DNA of 13,735 nt from Clostridia bacterium. GTDB lineage: Bacteria > Bacillota_A > Clostridia > Christensenellales > Aristaeellaceae. Made by a program: the position numbers and the translations under genes. How positions within the stretch are numbered: position 1 is the first letter of the stretch; every line of letters begins with the position of its first letter. Below, in pieces: positions 128 to 12,447 of the stretch. Where the stretch lies: the NCBI GenBank assembly GCA_025997215.1, contig BNUH01000075.1, forward strand, positions 1 to 13,735, written 5' to 3'. A model generated the notes under the pieces. That model made no database searches. It saw only the letters and a program-made list of their open reading frames with translations, and was not told the DNA's origin.

Positions 128-172
128 GCACGATTTTTGGTGGTAATTTCAATGTGGAACGGTTTGCGAATC

Positions 173-201
173 TTGACGAATCCACGGCCTTACTGTATAC
201 T
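173..201 (+). promoter_or_regulatory. Sigma-A-type promoter of ogg
   Basis: TTGACG (173-178), a 17-nt spacer and TATACT (196-201) make a near-consensus vegetative promoter. Transcription would start near 208. A GGAGGG ribosome site at 223-228 follows, so the promoter fixes the coding start downstream of it and excludes the ATG at 154, which lies upstream of the -35 box. Confidence 0.75.
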
Positions 202-234
202 GTCCTCACAAGAATTAGTAATGGAGGGAACGCT

Positions 235-1020
235 CTGGTAACCATCGAATCCAACTGGCTTGATCTAGCCAAGATCGCGCGCAGCGGGCAGACCTTCCGC
301 TGGCGTGCGGTCGGTGTTGAATCATTATACGTCATACCTGCCCTAGGCCGCGAACTCCGCGCGACTCAGGTTTCACCTGGACGCGTGGAGTTTGCTTGTG
401 ATGAGGATGAATGGTCGAACATCTGGTGGAAATACCTCGACATGGATACCGATTATGAATCCATAGCCGCCGCTGTCGATCCCGACGACGCGTATCTGAC
501 AGCCGCGTGTGAAGCCGCGCGCGGTCTGCGCATGCTCCGACAGGATTTTTGGGAGACGACCGCAAGTTTTATCTGCAGCCAGAATAATAATATCCCGCGT
601 ATCACGGGCATGCTCAGCCGCATCTGCGGCGTGTGCGGAGGCTTCCCCGATCCGGCGAGGCTCGTCAGCGTCGGCCGCGAACCGCTAGCTGCGTGCGGCC
701 TGGGTTATCGGCTGGATTATCTGATCCGCGCCGCTGAACAGTTCGTCGCCGATCAGCCGGAACAGTTCATCCGACAGTATAATTATGATGACGCACGCAA
801 GTATCTGCTGACCTTCTACGGCATAGGACCGAAGGTGGCAGACTGTATCTGCCTGTATGGTCTGGGATTGACCGGGGCGTTCCCGCGCGATGTGTGGGTC
901 AAGCGGATCGAGCGGGAGCAATACGGCGGTGCGTTCCCGGTTGAACGTTACCCTGAAACGGCAGGGATTTTGCAATTATTCATGTTTTGGCATGAACGGA
1001 TGCGGGTTAAAGATTCTTGA
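235..1020 (+). CDS. ogg: 8-oxoguanine DNA glycosylase/AP lyase (OGG1 type)
   Basis: Bifunctional base-excision repair enzyme that removes 8-oxoguanine opposite C and cleaves the AP site through a lysine Schiff base. Visible: an OGG N-terminal segment with GQTFRW, a helix with SQNNNIPRI, then the HhH-GPD hairpin YGIGPKVADCICLYGLG and PRDVWV. The lysine at 832-834 (residue 200 from this start) and aspartate at 889-891 (residue 219) match the catalytic Lys/Asp pair of human OGG1 (K249/D268), with the same spacing of 19. The frame is open back to an ATG at 154, but that ATG precedes the promoter (173-201). The only well-placed start after the promoter is CTG at 235, six nt after GGAGGG (223-228); it gives 261 residues, and residues before it look unlike the family. 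The start codon is therefore unusual and needs proof; the gene identity is secure. It is monocistronic and convergent with the aldolase gene. Confidence 0.88.
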   Translation: MVTIESNWLDLAKIARSGQTFRWRAVGVESLYVIPALGRELRATQVSPGRVEFACDEDEWSNIWWKYLDMDTDYESIAAAVDPDDAYLTAACEAARGLRMLRQDFWETTASFICSQNNNIPRITGMLSRICGVCGGFPDPARLVSVGREPLAACGLGYRLDYLIRAAEQFVADQPEQFIRQYNYDDARKYLLTFYGIGPKVADCICLYGLGLTGAFPRDVWVKRIEREQYGGAFPVERYPETAGILQLFMFWHERMRVKDS

Positions 1021-1041: not shown

Positions 1042-1176
1042 CCTCTGCGGAGGGATTGCCCCAACTGCGGTTGGGGTATGTTACTTTTCCCGTCCGTGGG
1101 AAAAGTAACCAAAAGGACGGCCAAGGAGGGAGGGCAGCTGTGCCCTCCCTCCCTGGACCCTCCCTCCTCAATATTG
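1042..1176 (+). repeat. Multi-hairpin repeat, copy 1 (3' of ogg)
   Basis: About 131-135 bp that recurs in inverted orientation at 1479-1613. Internal order: hairpin A, CCCCAAC (1059-1065)/GTTGGGG (1070-1076), loop TGCG; hairpin B, a perfect 12-bp stem GTTACTTTTCCC (1080-1091)/GGGAAAAGTAAC (1098-1109), loop GTCCGT; a linker with GGACGG (1115-1120) able to pair with loop B; hairpin C, GGAGGGAGGGCA (1125-1136)/TGCCCTCCCTCC (1141-1152), which extends outward to CCA/TGG with one A-C mismatch; and a tail with CCCTCCCTCC (1158-1167) ending CTCAAT. No T-tract follows any stem, so it is not a classic intrinsic terminator. It starts 21 nt after the ogg stop. Short reading frames across it are almost certainly not genes. 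Just before it lies a separate hairpin, AGTGATT (1025-1031)/AATCACT (1034-1040). Confidence 0.85.
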
Positions 1177-1247
1177 CACCTGCTGCATGAGGCCAAACAT
1201 GCGCCATCCAGAGTAGCACAGTATTGCAGAGTTTTGTCATCATATTG

Positions 1248-1369
1248 TTTACATGAAATCCTAGATGATCTAAAGCTGGCGGCGGGAGACTGTTATGATT
1301 TCGTATTATTTACATACGTGCTTAGAAGATCCGGAGTTGGTAGCAGAGGTGTGTTATGATTATATAATG
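1248..1369. repeat. Degenerate 61-bp tandem duplication between the two hairpin repeats
   Basis: Two adjacent 61-nt units (1248-1308 and 1309-1369) both begin TTTACAT, share GATC near position 20 and TGTTATGATT near the end, and agree at roughly 60 percent of positions by eye. The region is AT-richer than its surroundings. Read in frame with each unit, both give similar peptides (LDDLKLAAGDCYDF and LEDPELVAEVCYDY). The 61-nt period would shift the frame between units, so no intact gene spans both. The rest of 1177-1478 shows no gene, only a small hairpin TTGGTC/GACCAA at 1454-1468. It may be a relic of a repeated coding sequence or a noncoding repeat. Confidence 0.5.
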
Positions 1370-1478
1370 ATAATGACAAGCCTCGCCAATACGACTACCT
1401 CGCCGCGAAGCCTCGATAACCTTACAAGGCTGTGCCTGTAACTCAATTGAACGTTGGTCATAGACCAATGAGCGGAGC

Positions 1479-1613
1479 CAACATTGAGGAGGGAGAGTCC
1501 AGAGAGGGAGGGCACAGTGCCCTCCCTCTCTGGCCGTCCTTTTGGTTACTTTTCCCACGGACGGGAAAAGTAACAAGTCCCCAACCGCAGTTGGGGCAGT
1601 CCGCCCGCAGAGG
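1479..1613 (-). repeat. Multi-hairpin repeat, copy 2 (3' of the aldolase gene)
   Basis: Reverse-complement copy of 1042-1176, same length and same order of parts when read on the minus strand. Hairpin A is at 1579-1596, hairpin B at 1545-1574 (identical 12-bp stem and loop), and hairpin C at 1499-1533 with a perfect 16-bp stem. The block from hairpin B through GGACGGCCA is identical to copy 1; differences cluster in the A-B spacer and hairpin C. It begins 28 nt beyond the stop codon of the minus-strand aldolase gene, so it has the same orientation relative to its gene as copy 1 has to ogg. Confidence 0.85.
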
Positions 1614-1641: not shown

Positions 1642-2583
1642 TCACTTCTGCAGCAAATGCACGGCGAACCCGCCAATCTCTTCCTCTAAATACGCCGCCT
1701 TGCTGCCAGGAATCGCCGGAACGAACACGCACCCCAATCCTTCCAAATAAGCCTTGCCGCGCGCCAGATTGTTGACGCCCACGCTGATGTGGCCGTGAGT
1801 GCCGCGCCCGCCGCCCTTCATGACCTCGATGCCCGTGCCGGCGAACGCTCCGGCGCTGCCATCCTTGATCGGCCATCCGAATAGCGCGCTGAAACGCTGC
1901 GCCACCTTGGTCCCCTCCGGCCCGTCCGCACAATTCACGCCCACGTGCGTGACTTCGAAGCCCAGCGTAATTTCAACTGCCGTGCGCGCTGTGGCCTCGA
2001 CCTTCGCCCAATCCTTCGCGGCGATCCACTCTTCCTTCGTGAACCAGCTGCCGCCGCACGCCAGCACCTTTGGATTCGCCAGGTATTCAGCCAGGTTTTT
2101 CTCGTTCACGCCGCCCGTAGGCACAAACTTCATATCGCCATAAGGCCCGCTCAACGCCTTGATCGCCGCAAGCCCGCCCAACTGTTCCGCTGGAAAGAAT
2201 TTGACCGCCTTCAGTCCAAACTCCAACGCCTGCTCGATGTCGCTGGGCGAGGCGCATCCCGGCAACACCGTGATGCCATGCTCGATGCACCAGCCTACCA
2301 CCTTGGGGTTGAATCCCGGCGCGACGATGTACTTCGCGCCAGCCTTGACCGCGCGCTCGGCCTGCTCGATTGTCAGCACCGTGCCCGCGCCTAGTATCAT
2401 ATCCGGCAACGCCTCCGCCGTGAGCCTGATCGCTTCCTCGGCCGCCGGAGTTCTGAACGTGAACTCCACGACGGGCAGCCCGCCGCGCGTCAGCGCCTGT
2501 GCGATAGGCACCGCGTCAGCCGCGTTTGACACCTTGACAGCGGGGATTAAACCATAACGTTCCAATACAGGTAATAAATCCAC
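1642..2583 (-). CDS. eda: KDPG/KHG aldolase fused to a VOC (glyoxalase-fold) domain
   Basis: Class I aldolase that splits 2-keto-3-deoxy-6-phosphogluconate (and/or 4-hydroxy-2-oxoglutarate) to pyruvate plus an aldehyde, as in the Entner-Doudoroff and hexuronate routes. Residues 1-205 are the TIM-barrel aldolase: catalytic E40 in VVEFTFRTP, GAGTVL at 65-70, and Schiff-base K128 in VKFFPAE (Glu45 and Lys133 in E. coli Eda), then PTGGV at 155-159. Residues 208-313 form a second domain starting FEVTHVGVN with a VOC look (H213 is a possible metal ligand; HISVGVNN and VHLLQK later). E. coli Eda is about 213 residues, so the extra domain adds about 100; such longer forms occur in Clostridia. The start is GTG at 2583-2581, eight nt after AGGAGG, and that ribosome site overlaps the stop of the upstream gene, so the two are probably cotranscribed. 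No sugar kinase or uronate gene is next to it, so the sugar served is unknown. Confidence 0.9.
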   Translation of the reverse strand: MDLLPVLERYGLIPAVKVSNAADAVPIAQALTRGGLPVVEFTFRTPAAEEAIRLTAEALPDMILGAGTVLTIEQAERAVKAGAKYIVAPGFNPKVVGWCIEHGITVLPGCASPSDIEQALEFGLKAVKFFPAEQLGGLAAIKALSGPYGDMKFVPTGGVNEKNLAEYLANPKVLACGGSWFTKEEWIAAKDWAKVEATARTAVEITLGFEVTHVGVNCADGPEGTKVAQRFSALFGWPIKDGSAGAFAGTGIEVMKGGGRGTHGHISVGVNNLARGKAYLEGLGCVFVPAIPGSKAAYLEEEIGGFAVHLLQK

Positions 2584-6048: not shown

Positions 6049-7395
6049 ATGAACCCGCGATACGATACGTTGTTGTTTGACTTGGACGGCACCCTGACCG
6101 ATTCCTACCCGGGCGTGACGGGTTCCGTAATCGCGGCTATCGACGGCATGGGGTTGGAGCAGCCGGACGTCACGACGCTGCGGACGTTTATGGGTCCGCC
6201 GCTGTCGGAATCGTTCAAGCGCGTGTTCAGCCATCTCACCCAGGCGGAGGTGGATCACGCCATAGCGTTGTACCGCGATGATTTCACTGTCAACGGCATA
6301 TACAACAACCGCGTGTATCAGGGCATACCGCACCTGCTGAAACGCCTACACGCGATGGGTGTGAATTGCATCGTAGCCACATCTAAGCCGACGGTATTCG
6401 CGCGGCGCGTGTTGGAATATTTTGGAATACTGGAGTTATTCGACGCGGTGATCGGCGTCGAGCTGGATGAGCGTGAGCACGACAAGGCAGACGTAGTTCG
6501 CGCGGCGCTGCCTGCGCATTACCGCCGCGCCGCGATGGTGGGCGATCGGCATTATGACATGCGCGCGGCCAAGGCCAACAATATCGATGCGATCGGCGTG
6601 CTGTATGGCTACGGCGACCGCGTTGAATTATTGGAGACGGGCGCGGACGCTTTGGCCGAGGATGTGCCAGCACTGACACGCATGCTCTGCGGCGGGGCCG
6701 ACGTGTCGGAGGGATTGTTTATAACATTAGAAGGGATCGACGGCGCGGGCAAGACGACCCAGATGCCGCTGCTGGCCGAACGGCTGGGGCTGATGGGCTT
6801 CGAGGTGGTTACCACGCGCGAGCCGGGCGGGTGCGCGCTGGCCGAGCGAATCCGCGAAATCACCCAGGACACGTCGAATATCGGCATGACGGCCGAGGCC
6901 GAGGCGTACCTGTTCGCGGCGAGCCGGGCGCAGCACGTGCGCGAGGTGATAGCCCCGGCGCTGGCGCGCGGTGCGATCGTGATCAGCGATCGATTCGTGG
7001 ATTCGTCGGTGGCGTACCAGGGCGGCGGGCGCGAGCTGGGCTTGCGCAATGTGCAGCAGCTCAATGAGATGGCGTTGGGCGCGTGTCTGCCCGACCTGAC
7101 GCTGTTATTCATGGTGGATCCGACGACGGCCCTGCTGCGGCGCGGCATCGCGACGCGTCTGGATCGGATGGAGCGCGCGGGTGAGGCGTTCTTCCAGCGG
7201 GTGTATGACGCGCTGGTCACGATAGGCCGCGAGGAACCCGACCGCGTGAAATTCGTCGACGCCAGCAAGCCCGTCGAGGAGGTCAGCCGCAGCGTATTCG
7301 CGCTGACCGAGGCCGCCGTGCGCGCGCATCTGCAGTCGCCGCCTCACGAAACCAAAGAGCCGACGCCGACGCCGTCTCCCTTCGACGACGAATGA
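6049..7395 (+). CDS. tmk: HAD phosphatase fused to thymidylate kinase
   Basis: One 448-residue frame encodes two enzymes. Residues 1-216 are a HAD hydrolase: motif I DLDGT (D11/D13), a helical cap, motif II VATSKP, a lysine in HDKADVV and motif IV MVGDRHYD, then GVLYGYGDR; GPPLSESF and this tail recall the HAD 5'-nucleotidase/phosphoglycolate phosphatase branch. From residue 222 it reads GLFITLEGIDGAGKTTQ, the usual start of a bacterial TMK, with P-loop G229-T236 (K235), TREPGG, D314-R-F, and RLDRMERAGEAFF in the lid. TMK makes dTDP from dTMP for dTTP synthesis. The C-terminus is a Pro/Thr-rich tail (PTPTPSPFDDE). AGGAGG (6031-6036) overlaps the preceding stop and is 12 nt from ATG, rather far. 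A GTG at 6703 (residue 219) after GGGG could also start a TMK alone. The stop overlaps the mnmA start. Both halves keep their key residues, so both are probably active. Confidence 0.9.
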   Translation: MNPRYDTLLFDLDGTLTDSYPGVTGSVIAAIDGMGLEQPDVTTLRTFMGPPLSESFKRVFSHLTQAEVDHAIALYRDDFTVNGIYNNRVYQGIPHLLKRLHAMGVNCIVATSKPTVFARRVLEYFGILELFDAVIGVELDEREHDKADVVRAALPAHYRRAAMVGDRHYDMRAAKANNIDAIGVLYGYGDRVELLETGADALAEDVPALTRMLCGGADVSEGLFITLEGIDGAGKTTQMPLLAERLGLMGFEVVTTREPGGCALAERIREITQDTSNIGMTAEAEAYLFAASRAQHVREVIAPALARGAIVISDRFVDSSVAYQGGGRELGLRNVQQLNEMALGACLPDLTLLFMVDPTTALLRRGIATRLDRMERAGEAFFQRVYDALVTIGREEPDRVKFVDASKPVEEVSRSVFALTEAAVRAHLQSPPHETKEPTPTPSPFDDE

Positions 7396-12187: not shown

Positions 12188-12447
12188 GTAATCTTTGGAT
12201 GAGGGGAACCGAGTACCCTGCACACCGACCAAGCGGCAGTTGCCGCGTCAGAGAGCGAGCGCCATCGGCTGGGAGCGCGCGCAGGCCGGACGGGGGAATA
12301 CCAGTCCCGGACAGAGCGTTTCGCACGCGTTACAGTGCGGTTCGAGGCTAGCGCGCGAATTATTGTCGAATTATCGCGCCGCTGGTAAAGCAGGGTGGAA
12401 CCACGGGCGGCAGCTCGTCCCCGCAGTTGGCGGGGATGGGCTTTTTT
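12188..12447 (+). promoter_or_regulatory. T-box riboswitch, threonine (ACC specifier)
   Basis: Leader RNA that senses uncharged tRNA-Thr and lets transcription continue into thrS. Stem I elements appear in order: AGTA (12212-12215) of the loop-E side, CAGAGAG followed by GGCTGGGAG of the distal region (12249-12275), and ACC (12300-12302) followed by a purine as the specifier codon, which matches threonine. The T-box core AGGGTGGAACCACGGG (12392-12407) contains UGGA in the antiterminator bulge, which would pair with a tRNA 3' end UCCA and so predicts discriminator U73 on the cognate tRNA. The terminator follows at once. Stem boundaries of the less conserved stems II and III (about 12310-12385) were not resolved. 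Specifier, T-box core and downstream gene agree with one another. Confidence 0.93.
12412..12447 (+). terminator. T-box intrinsic terminator
   Basis: AGCTCGTCCCCGC (12412-12424) pairs with GCGGGGATGGGCT (12430-12442) over 13 positions including two G-U pairs, loop AGTTG, followed by a run of six T (12442-12447). Antiterminator folding around 12392-12407 would remove part of its 5' flank when uncharged tRNA-Thr is bound. Confidence 0.9.

Follow-up and report, generated by a model that had tools for sequence, protein, structure and literature searches.

The window, by which we mean the whole analyzed stretch of 13,735 nucleotides, contains a gap of ~620 bp between two genes whose stop codons face each other, one for 8-oxoguanine DNA glycosylase (ogg) and one for a KDPG/KHG aldolase. 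The element described here sits in that gap (Table 1). Its two sides form collinear inverted arms, with 91% complementarity between 1042-1076 and 1579-1613, 97% between 1079-1136 and 1518-1575, and 92% between 1138-1176 and 1479-1517. The three arm pairs combine into an inverted repeat of ~135 bp, its sides 302 bp apart, which is the longest and best-matching repeat detected in the window. The outer limits of the element are set where complementarity stops, not from an empty site. The first-pass annotation had described two copies of ~135 bp with a near-identical core and the same three-hairpin order, and the comparison of the inverted arms confirms this description. It also gave the offsets correctly (21 nt between the ogg stop at 1020 and 1042; 28 nt between 1613 and the aldolase stop at 1642), as well as the same orientation of each copy relative to its gene. 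What it missed is that the copies are mutually inverted, at a distance typical of a family with paired ends.

Table 1. Features of the element and its flanking genes in the window
Feature	Position	Strand	Description or basis
Flanking gene, 8-oxoguanine DNA glycosylase (ogg)	154..1020	+	ORF; OGG_N and HhH-GPD; context only
Whole element with inverted ends	1042..1613		~572 bp; inverted arms; inward-pair architecture as in related loci
Left end	1042..1176	+	Outer stretch, hairpin B, central hairpin with tail, hairpin D
Hairpin B CCCCAACtgcgGTTGGGG, left end	1059..1076	+	Fold
Central hairpin GTTACTTTTCCC-GTCCGT-GGGAAAAGTAAC (helix 1), left end	1080..1109	+	Inverted arms, model match, fold
CAAAA linker and tail, left end	1110..1120	+	Sequence; helix 2 covaries in relatives
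Hairpin D (CCA..GAGGGAGGGCA..TGG), left end	1121..1156	+	Then CCGTCCTTTT when read outward (minus strand); terminator-like
Interior	1177..1478		Crossed by ORFs of 60-104 aa
Right end	1479..1613	-	Left end inverted
Hairpin D, right end	1499..1533	-	Terminator-like when read outward (plus strand)
Central hairpin, linker and tail, right end	1533..1575	-	Covariance model, 48.7 bits
Hairpin B, right end	1579..1596	-	Fold
Flanking gene, KDPG/KHG aldolase	1642..2583	-	ORF, stop at 1642; context only

Both ends carry hairpin B, the central hairpin, and hairpin D in identical order, and their outermost ~17 nt are similar in sequence but fold differently. Read inward from either side, CAAAAGGACGG comes directly after the central hairpin. 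Compared with shuffled sequences, the ends fold strongly (z of -8.1 for the left and -7.8 for the right), and the exact 36-nt hairpin pattern occurs twice in the window (shuffle mean, 0.00). A covariance model scores 1079-1121 at 48.7 bits (E 5.4e-12), the window sequence being among the model's 35. Terminator-like consensus sites number four between 950 and 1700, versus 1.0 in shuffles; two lie at hairpin D and point outward, and two lie at hairpin B and point inward. The core positions of the two ends are separated by 452 bp. No contig of the species-genome collection contains the window's exact central hairpin, six-base loop included, no viral contig contains the exact 36-nt pattern, and blastn with 1035-1620 found nothing in phage or plasmid records; the 18-nt core has two matching stretches in viral contigs. 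Within the interior, 1229-1370 is an imperfect tandem of ~60 nt (..GATGATCTAAAG.. / ..GAAGATCCGGAG.., with TGTTATGATT after both) that Tandem Repeats Finder did not report and that is perhaps a coding relic. Elsewhere in the window, a T-box leader lies upstream of a threonyl-tRNA synthetase gene (12190-12425, +; 41.3 bits, E 6.1e-8, below the Rfam gathering score of 93).

The pairing of ends is best seen in relatives. A scan of the species-genome collection for the central-hairpin pattern, with a loop of 2 to 14 bases, yielded 68 related stretches, assigned by title to Oscillospiraceae, Oscillibacter, Clostridiales, or Bacillota, with two exceptions, an "uncultured bacterium" and a Cupriavidus. 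When a single mismatch in the 15-nt core is tolerated, an inward-facing pair within 1.5 kb is seen in 29 of the 68 loci, and no other close arrangement occurs; with two mismatches there are 38 such loci and 3 other arrangements. Thirty loci remain partnerless even then, which we count against a mobile element, as we do a mixed Bacillota locus set in which 13 hairpins are unpaired versus 4. The window's pair is one of 46 inward pairs, 43 of which span 396-696 bp and three 1003-1179 bp. In five copy-rich Bacillota locus sets, 85 of 89 adjacent hairpins less than 1.5 kb apart face inward (G001, 61/64; B95, 3/3; G003, 10/11; G004, 3/3; G045/G021, 8/8), a count that uses a relaxed hairpin definition and overlapping loci without de-duplication, so that double counting is possible. 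Median spacing of the inward pairs is 445-628 bp in the main Bacillota sets. Around the paired elements of G045 and G021 (L110-L129) there are longer mosaics of various GC-rich hairpins, such as GTAGAGC..GCTCTAC and GTGAGGC..GCCTCAC, which several sites have in common but in differing order.

The whole unit, both ends together with what lies between them, is found repeatedly at unrelated sites of other genomes. In one genome (B95), four pairs share 92-95% identity over 696-754 bp; their flanks cannot be aligned, and their sites are unrelated. The 21 elements compared from G001 share 61-90% identity (median, 80%) and one common modular plan. In Cupriavidus (G013), copy L262 is 91.8% identical to L263 over 645 bp and 85.7% identical to L264 over 694 bp; it matches L085 in two pieces (91% and 94%) and L265 at 84% over 275 bp only. 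Two independent insertions are rejected in view of the inward pairing in relatives and these whole-unit copies. Some copies enclose other genes between their inward ends: in L069, where the ends are 2.2 kb apart, these encode a methyltransferase and a DUF6199 protein; L068 holds an HTH protein, and the proteins of L066 and L061 lack a Pfam match. None of the five ORFs scanned between these ends is a known transposase. Blastn matched the interior of the window's element to none of 13 related elements sampled, and the movement of this element as a unit is for this reason deduced from relatives.

A known RNA family was considered and rejected, as no element match reaches the Rfam cut-off in the window or in the related loci scanned. 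Among 13 of the latter, only a purine riboswitch outside the element attained its gathering score; weaker matches are mostly to microRNA models, and one match in L113, to a Bacteroides small RNA model, scores 33 bits where the cut-off is 80. The idea that a conserved structured RNA extends over the 16 elements of G045 and G021 was likewise rejected; depending on the strand, 9-10 changes are two-sided and 59-75 one-sided, and 47-53 cells are broken. Riboswitches do occur near elements in related genomes, as context only (purine, L007:4572-4673; ZMP/ZTP, L129:1790-1867).

To assess covariation, we compared 32 distinct 41-nt ends, drawn from 34 nonwindow sequences after two of other length were left out; the window sequence, two bases longer, was also left out. 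Helix 1 joins columns 1-12 with 19-30 and is the central hairpin; helix 2 joins loop columns 15-18 with tail columns 36-39. Standard pairs make up 96.3% of cells; shuffles give 82.4%, and sliding the helices gives no more than 49.2%. Changes in the 512 cells are two-sided in 72 cases and one-sided in none. Counted against covariation are the further pair types, which number 10 and are fewer than in all 500 shuffles (12.9), and columns 18-36, which are unpaired in 16 of the 32 ends. In a larger set of 105 distinct 41-mers, G-T accounts for 12 of 1,521 paired cells; 159 of 1,680 cells do not pair (helix 2, 106/420; helix 1, 53/1,260), partly through a one-base register shift. The value of loop-tail complementarity was reached in 0 of 2,000 shuffles for 84 distinct non-Pseudomonadota and window sequences and in 19 of 2,000 for 21 Pseudomonadota sequences. 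Independent covariation events are fewer than these cell counts, because the relatedness of the sequences inflates the shuffle tests.

In the window or its relatives, the four or five bases behind the CAAAA linker are complementary to the loop of the central hairpin GTTACTTTT..AAAAGTAAC, and this tag varies together with the loop (CACG, CGCG, TTGC, TGCG, and others). In the window itself, the tail GGACG (1115-1119) can pair with the loop CGTCC (1091-1095). Helices 1 and 2 together would be an H-type pseudoknot or, alternatively, two mutually exclusive hairpins. That both are nearly pure Watson-Crick suggests selection on DNA. A covarying loop-tail helix with hardly any G-T intermediates in the ends of a mobile element offers a testable hint of recognition at the DNA level.

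We consider it probable that the repeats in the window are the inverted ends of one non-autonomous, noncoding mobile element (1042-1613), with folded ends that are read by an enzyme and copies that spread or overwrite one another. The enzyme would be supplied in trans and would act on ends folded as single-stranded or cruciform DNA, the loop-tail helix being presumably part of end recognition, and spread or overwriting would take place within genomes. In the window, the element lies in the short gap described above. Placed between two facing stop codons, it would leave the promoters of both ogg and the aldolase gene undisturbed. The window's element may also serve as a predicted two-way terminator, and such terminator-like hairpins may make intergenic insertions tolerable.

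In G001, 49 distinct elements were found, 44 of them with both neighbors called (the 5 lacking one were left out, as were 4 of 43 in an earlier context count, for which one neighboring gene lay off the locus); neighbors came from a simple ORF caller, without a check against annotation. Thirty-five of the 44 lie in co-directional gaps, 7 in convergent gaps, and 2 in divergent gaps, versus 61, 22, and 30 of 113 element-free gaps in the same loci. Co-directional gaps are thus enriched in elements (P = 0.0034) and divergent gaps depleted (P = 0.0016), and convergent gaps such as the window's are not enriched (7/44 versus 22/113; P = 0.82). These counts do not support the target preference for gene ends that had been proposed from the window. 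The central hairpin lies a median of 73 nt from a stop codon (quartiles, 61-108; n = 52) and 90 nt from a start codon (quartiles, 20-138; n = 41), and the corresponding values in the window (56 and 64 nt, measured in a similar way) are ordinary. According to the available part of one report, published REP elements are distributed comparably around genes (PMC3733652).

These data also allow an explanation at the level of the transcript, in which the element is a two-way terminator or a protector of mRNA 3' ends, selected for its RNA hairpins and spread only secondarily. The excess of terminator-like sites, the strong RNA folds of both ends, and the avoidance of divergent gaps are all in keeping with such a device, as is the orientation of the T-rich "L" end, which in G001 points to the upstream stop in 19 of the 28 co-directional elements that could be scored (7 of unclear end type were left out); this bias is not significant (P = 0.087). 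In co-directional gaps, however, one end lies upstream of a start, and termination would require no loop-tail helix and no pairing of ends. That both helices contain hardly any G-T pairs would be unusual for RNA and disfavors the purely RNA-level module of the first-pass annotation. We consider the transcript-level explanation unlikely.

Evidence on movement comes from two sister genomes (G045 and G021) that are 92-95% identical in collinear gene stretches. Copies are homogenized within genomes: mean identity is 0.903 and 0.902 inside them and 0.879 between them, a result reached in 0 of 5,000 label shuffles (four duplicate rows were dropped, and 4 of 10 fetched stretches without a pair were excluded). 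The two sets form separate groups in a tree, with the exception of one copy, and in one case the positional counterpart (0.890) is outranked by another copy. Of four compared sites, three have an element in both genomes, judging each from a single flank. The fourth is a rearrangement junction, where an element of G021 (L178:7565-8364, compared with L199 and L200) stands at the meeting point of two segments that are apart, and element free, in G045. No clean empty site with a target duplication was present at the four sites, no target duplication was noticed by eye at aligned element boundaries, and no mobilizing enzyme was found, all of which count against a mobile element. Because the compared sites are mostly filled in both genomes, elements may move only slowly, and part of the homogenization could be due to gene conversion. 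Several G021 contigs start or stop inside elements, and the family is a source of assembly contig breaks as well as of spurious small ORFs (e.g., ..FSPVGKVTKSTFKK..), of the kind that the first-pass annotation had connected with dubious small proteins in gut Clostridia.

If there were no present transposition, the family would consist of old dispersed repeats that are maintained by gene conversion or recombination and act as rearrangement hot spots. Species-specific homogenization, the junction with its element-free flanks, and the broken contigs would all follow from such a history, but it leaves unexplained the dozens of occupied sites in genomes whose scored hairpins reach at least 150 in the richest, the discrete ends of the B95 copies, and the patchy presence across groups. 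We regard it as quite unlikely.

Another way for such units to move is that of REPINs proper, REP doublets mobilized in trans by a RAYT (Y1 transposase). The family has intergenic inverted hairpin doublets, high copy number, and covarying structured ends, and two inverted hairpins form the replicative unit in relatives, judging from inward pairs and whole-unit copies. The transposase itself is less regular. Y1_Tnp (PF01797) was found in 6 of 20 carriers versus 9 of 20 genomes in which R1 (the covariance model used in the genome survey below) matched nothing, and not in the copy-rich genomes G001, G003, G012, G021, and G045, whose assemblies are fragmented and possibly incomplete; it does occur in G004, one of the three richest genomes and as rich in hairpins as G001 (E 5.5e-17, partial profile). 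Fourteen of the 20 carriers lack Y1, whereas G004 has it, and a REPIN mechanism is on balance disfavored. The fixed GTAG tag is also absent, and the spacing in the window and its relatives is mostly 400-700 bp, against commonest spacings of 71 and 110 bp for REPINs of P. fluorescens SBW25 in the accessible portion of that report (PMC3116915). We therefore think a REPIN in the strict sense distinctly improbable.

The first-pass annotation's own view, that the two copies are independent 3'-UTR modules targeting gene ends, could draw on the same offset and orientation at both genes, but it is contradicted by the paired architecture, and the whole-unit copies and the placement among genes speak against it; we hold it to be very improbable. 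Its wider idea of a widespread mobile repeat stands insofar as the family is abundant and is spread or homogenized within genomes; the modules placed separately do not, as relatives are mostly inward-facing pairs and the whole unit recurs at the four B95 sites. We infer that the matching offsets and orientation result from one symmetric element in a short convergent gap, which replaces a coincidence with simple anatomy.

The family is plentiful in various Oscillospiraceae and in some other genomes, in agreement with the widespread family that had been suspected. In the order to which G001 belongs, model R1 matched 33 of 295 genomes (single match in 9); in the class of G733, it matched 13 of 245 (single match in 7), and among Pseudomonadota 18 of 249 (single match in 6); the first and last counts include the center genome, already a known carrier, and E values are rough, so that single weak matches are possibly due to chance. 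Fifteen genomes chosen as pattern carriers have from 8 to at least 150 R1 matches each, and the three richest have at least 150, at least 150, and 148 scored hairpins. Inward pairs occur in two Pseudomonadota, the Cupriavidus genome (L262) and a genome (G1297, L273) that we call Pseudomonas-like solely because its element matches Pseudomonas plasmids; in L273, the loops match their own tails over 8 and 5 bases. Across Pseudomonadota, 20 hairpins are unpaired, 4 are in pairs, and 2 are near an end, which again counts against a mobile element. The Pseudomonas-like element also contains, at L273:1500-2016, a possible nested insertion (TGTGGGAGCTGGCTTGCCTGC..), which we take to resemble a Pseudomonas REPIN, and beside a Cupriavidus copy (L067:345-400) lies a CGTC-tagged palindrome, CGTCGTCCCCGCGCAGGCGGGGA, by eye like CGTC-type REPs.

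The close relatives of the window's own lineage (76-80% in one protein) were not reached among the sampled genomes. The window encodes, at 6049-7395 (+), an HAD-type phosphatase and a thymidylate kinase fused in one gene. At E 1e-60, this protein was matched (identity, 38-46%) in 0 of 394 genomes sampled from the order that contains G001, in 1 of 391 from its class, and in 30 of 297 in another sample; the fusion is perhaps a marker of the window's lineage, because it is so rarely matched in the sampled order and class. The 30 genomes with relatives of the gene had no R1 match, which counts against the mobile-element reading, as does the absence of the window's exact hairpin from the contigs of the species-genome collection.

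More tentatively, and with somewhat less confidence than in the element itself, we think it possible that the family represents a RAYT-independent class of mobile DNA in two phyla, with ends that would be read as a pseudoknotted single strand by a mover enzyme not yet known, and with a stem and loop-matching tag that would diversify as a lineage- or end-specific lock and key. The analysis ties a repeat present in great numbers in some Oscillospiraceae to Pseudomonadota repeats whose ends have the same structure. Among titles and abstract openings, with most subscription literature outside the coverage, no name or description of the motif was found.

As for known systems, we file the element as a variant of REPIN/MITE-like elements, a kind that is already known. 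MITEs are non-autonomous units with inverted ends, and BIMEs and BOX elements are modular mosaics of hairpins. Terminal inverted repeats like those of MITEs are present in the window and in relatives, but compared with all three the present family has long modular ends and occurs in two phyla. No autonomous partner was found among the five ORFs scanned between ends, and no target duplication at the boundaries and sites compared. With REPINs, as the portion of the source at hand describes them, it shares two inverted hairpins that bound a short noncoding intergenic unit of high copy number with no transposase gene inside (PMC3116915). It differs in its several hairpins per end, its loop-tail helix, its wider spacing, and its many carriers without Y1. 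The Pseudomonas repeats R200 (320 bp) and R178, compared by description only and from part of the source, are of the same size class and host group as the Pseudomonas-like copies (PMC2718517). Another related system is that of the GTAG- and CGTC-tagged REP dimers, described in a paper whose main text contains no word beginning with Firmicutes or Clostridi (PMC3733652). In the part of that paper available, these too are inverted dimers of a palindrome tagged at one end, and they likewise lie between unidirectional and convergent ORFs, near 3' ends (PMC3733652). Unlike them, the present family has a 12-bp stem and, in place of a fixed GTAG or CGTC, a tag that covaries with its loop.
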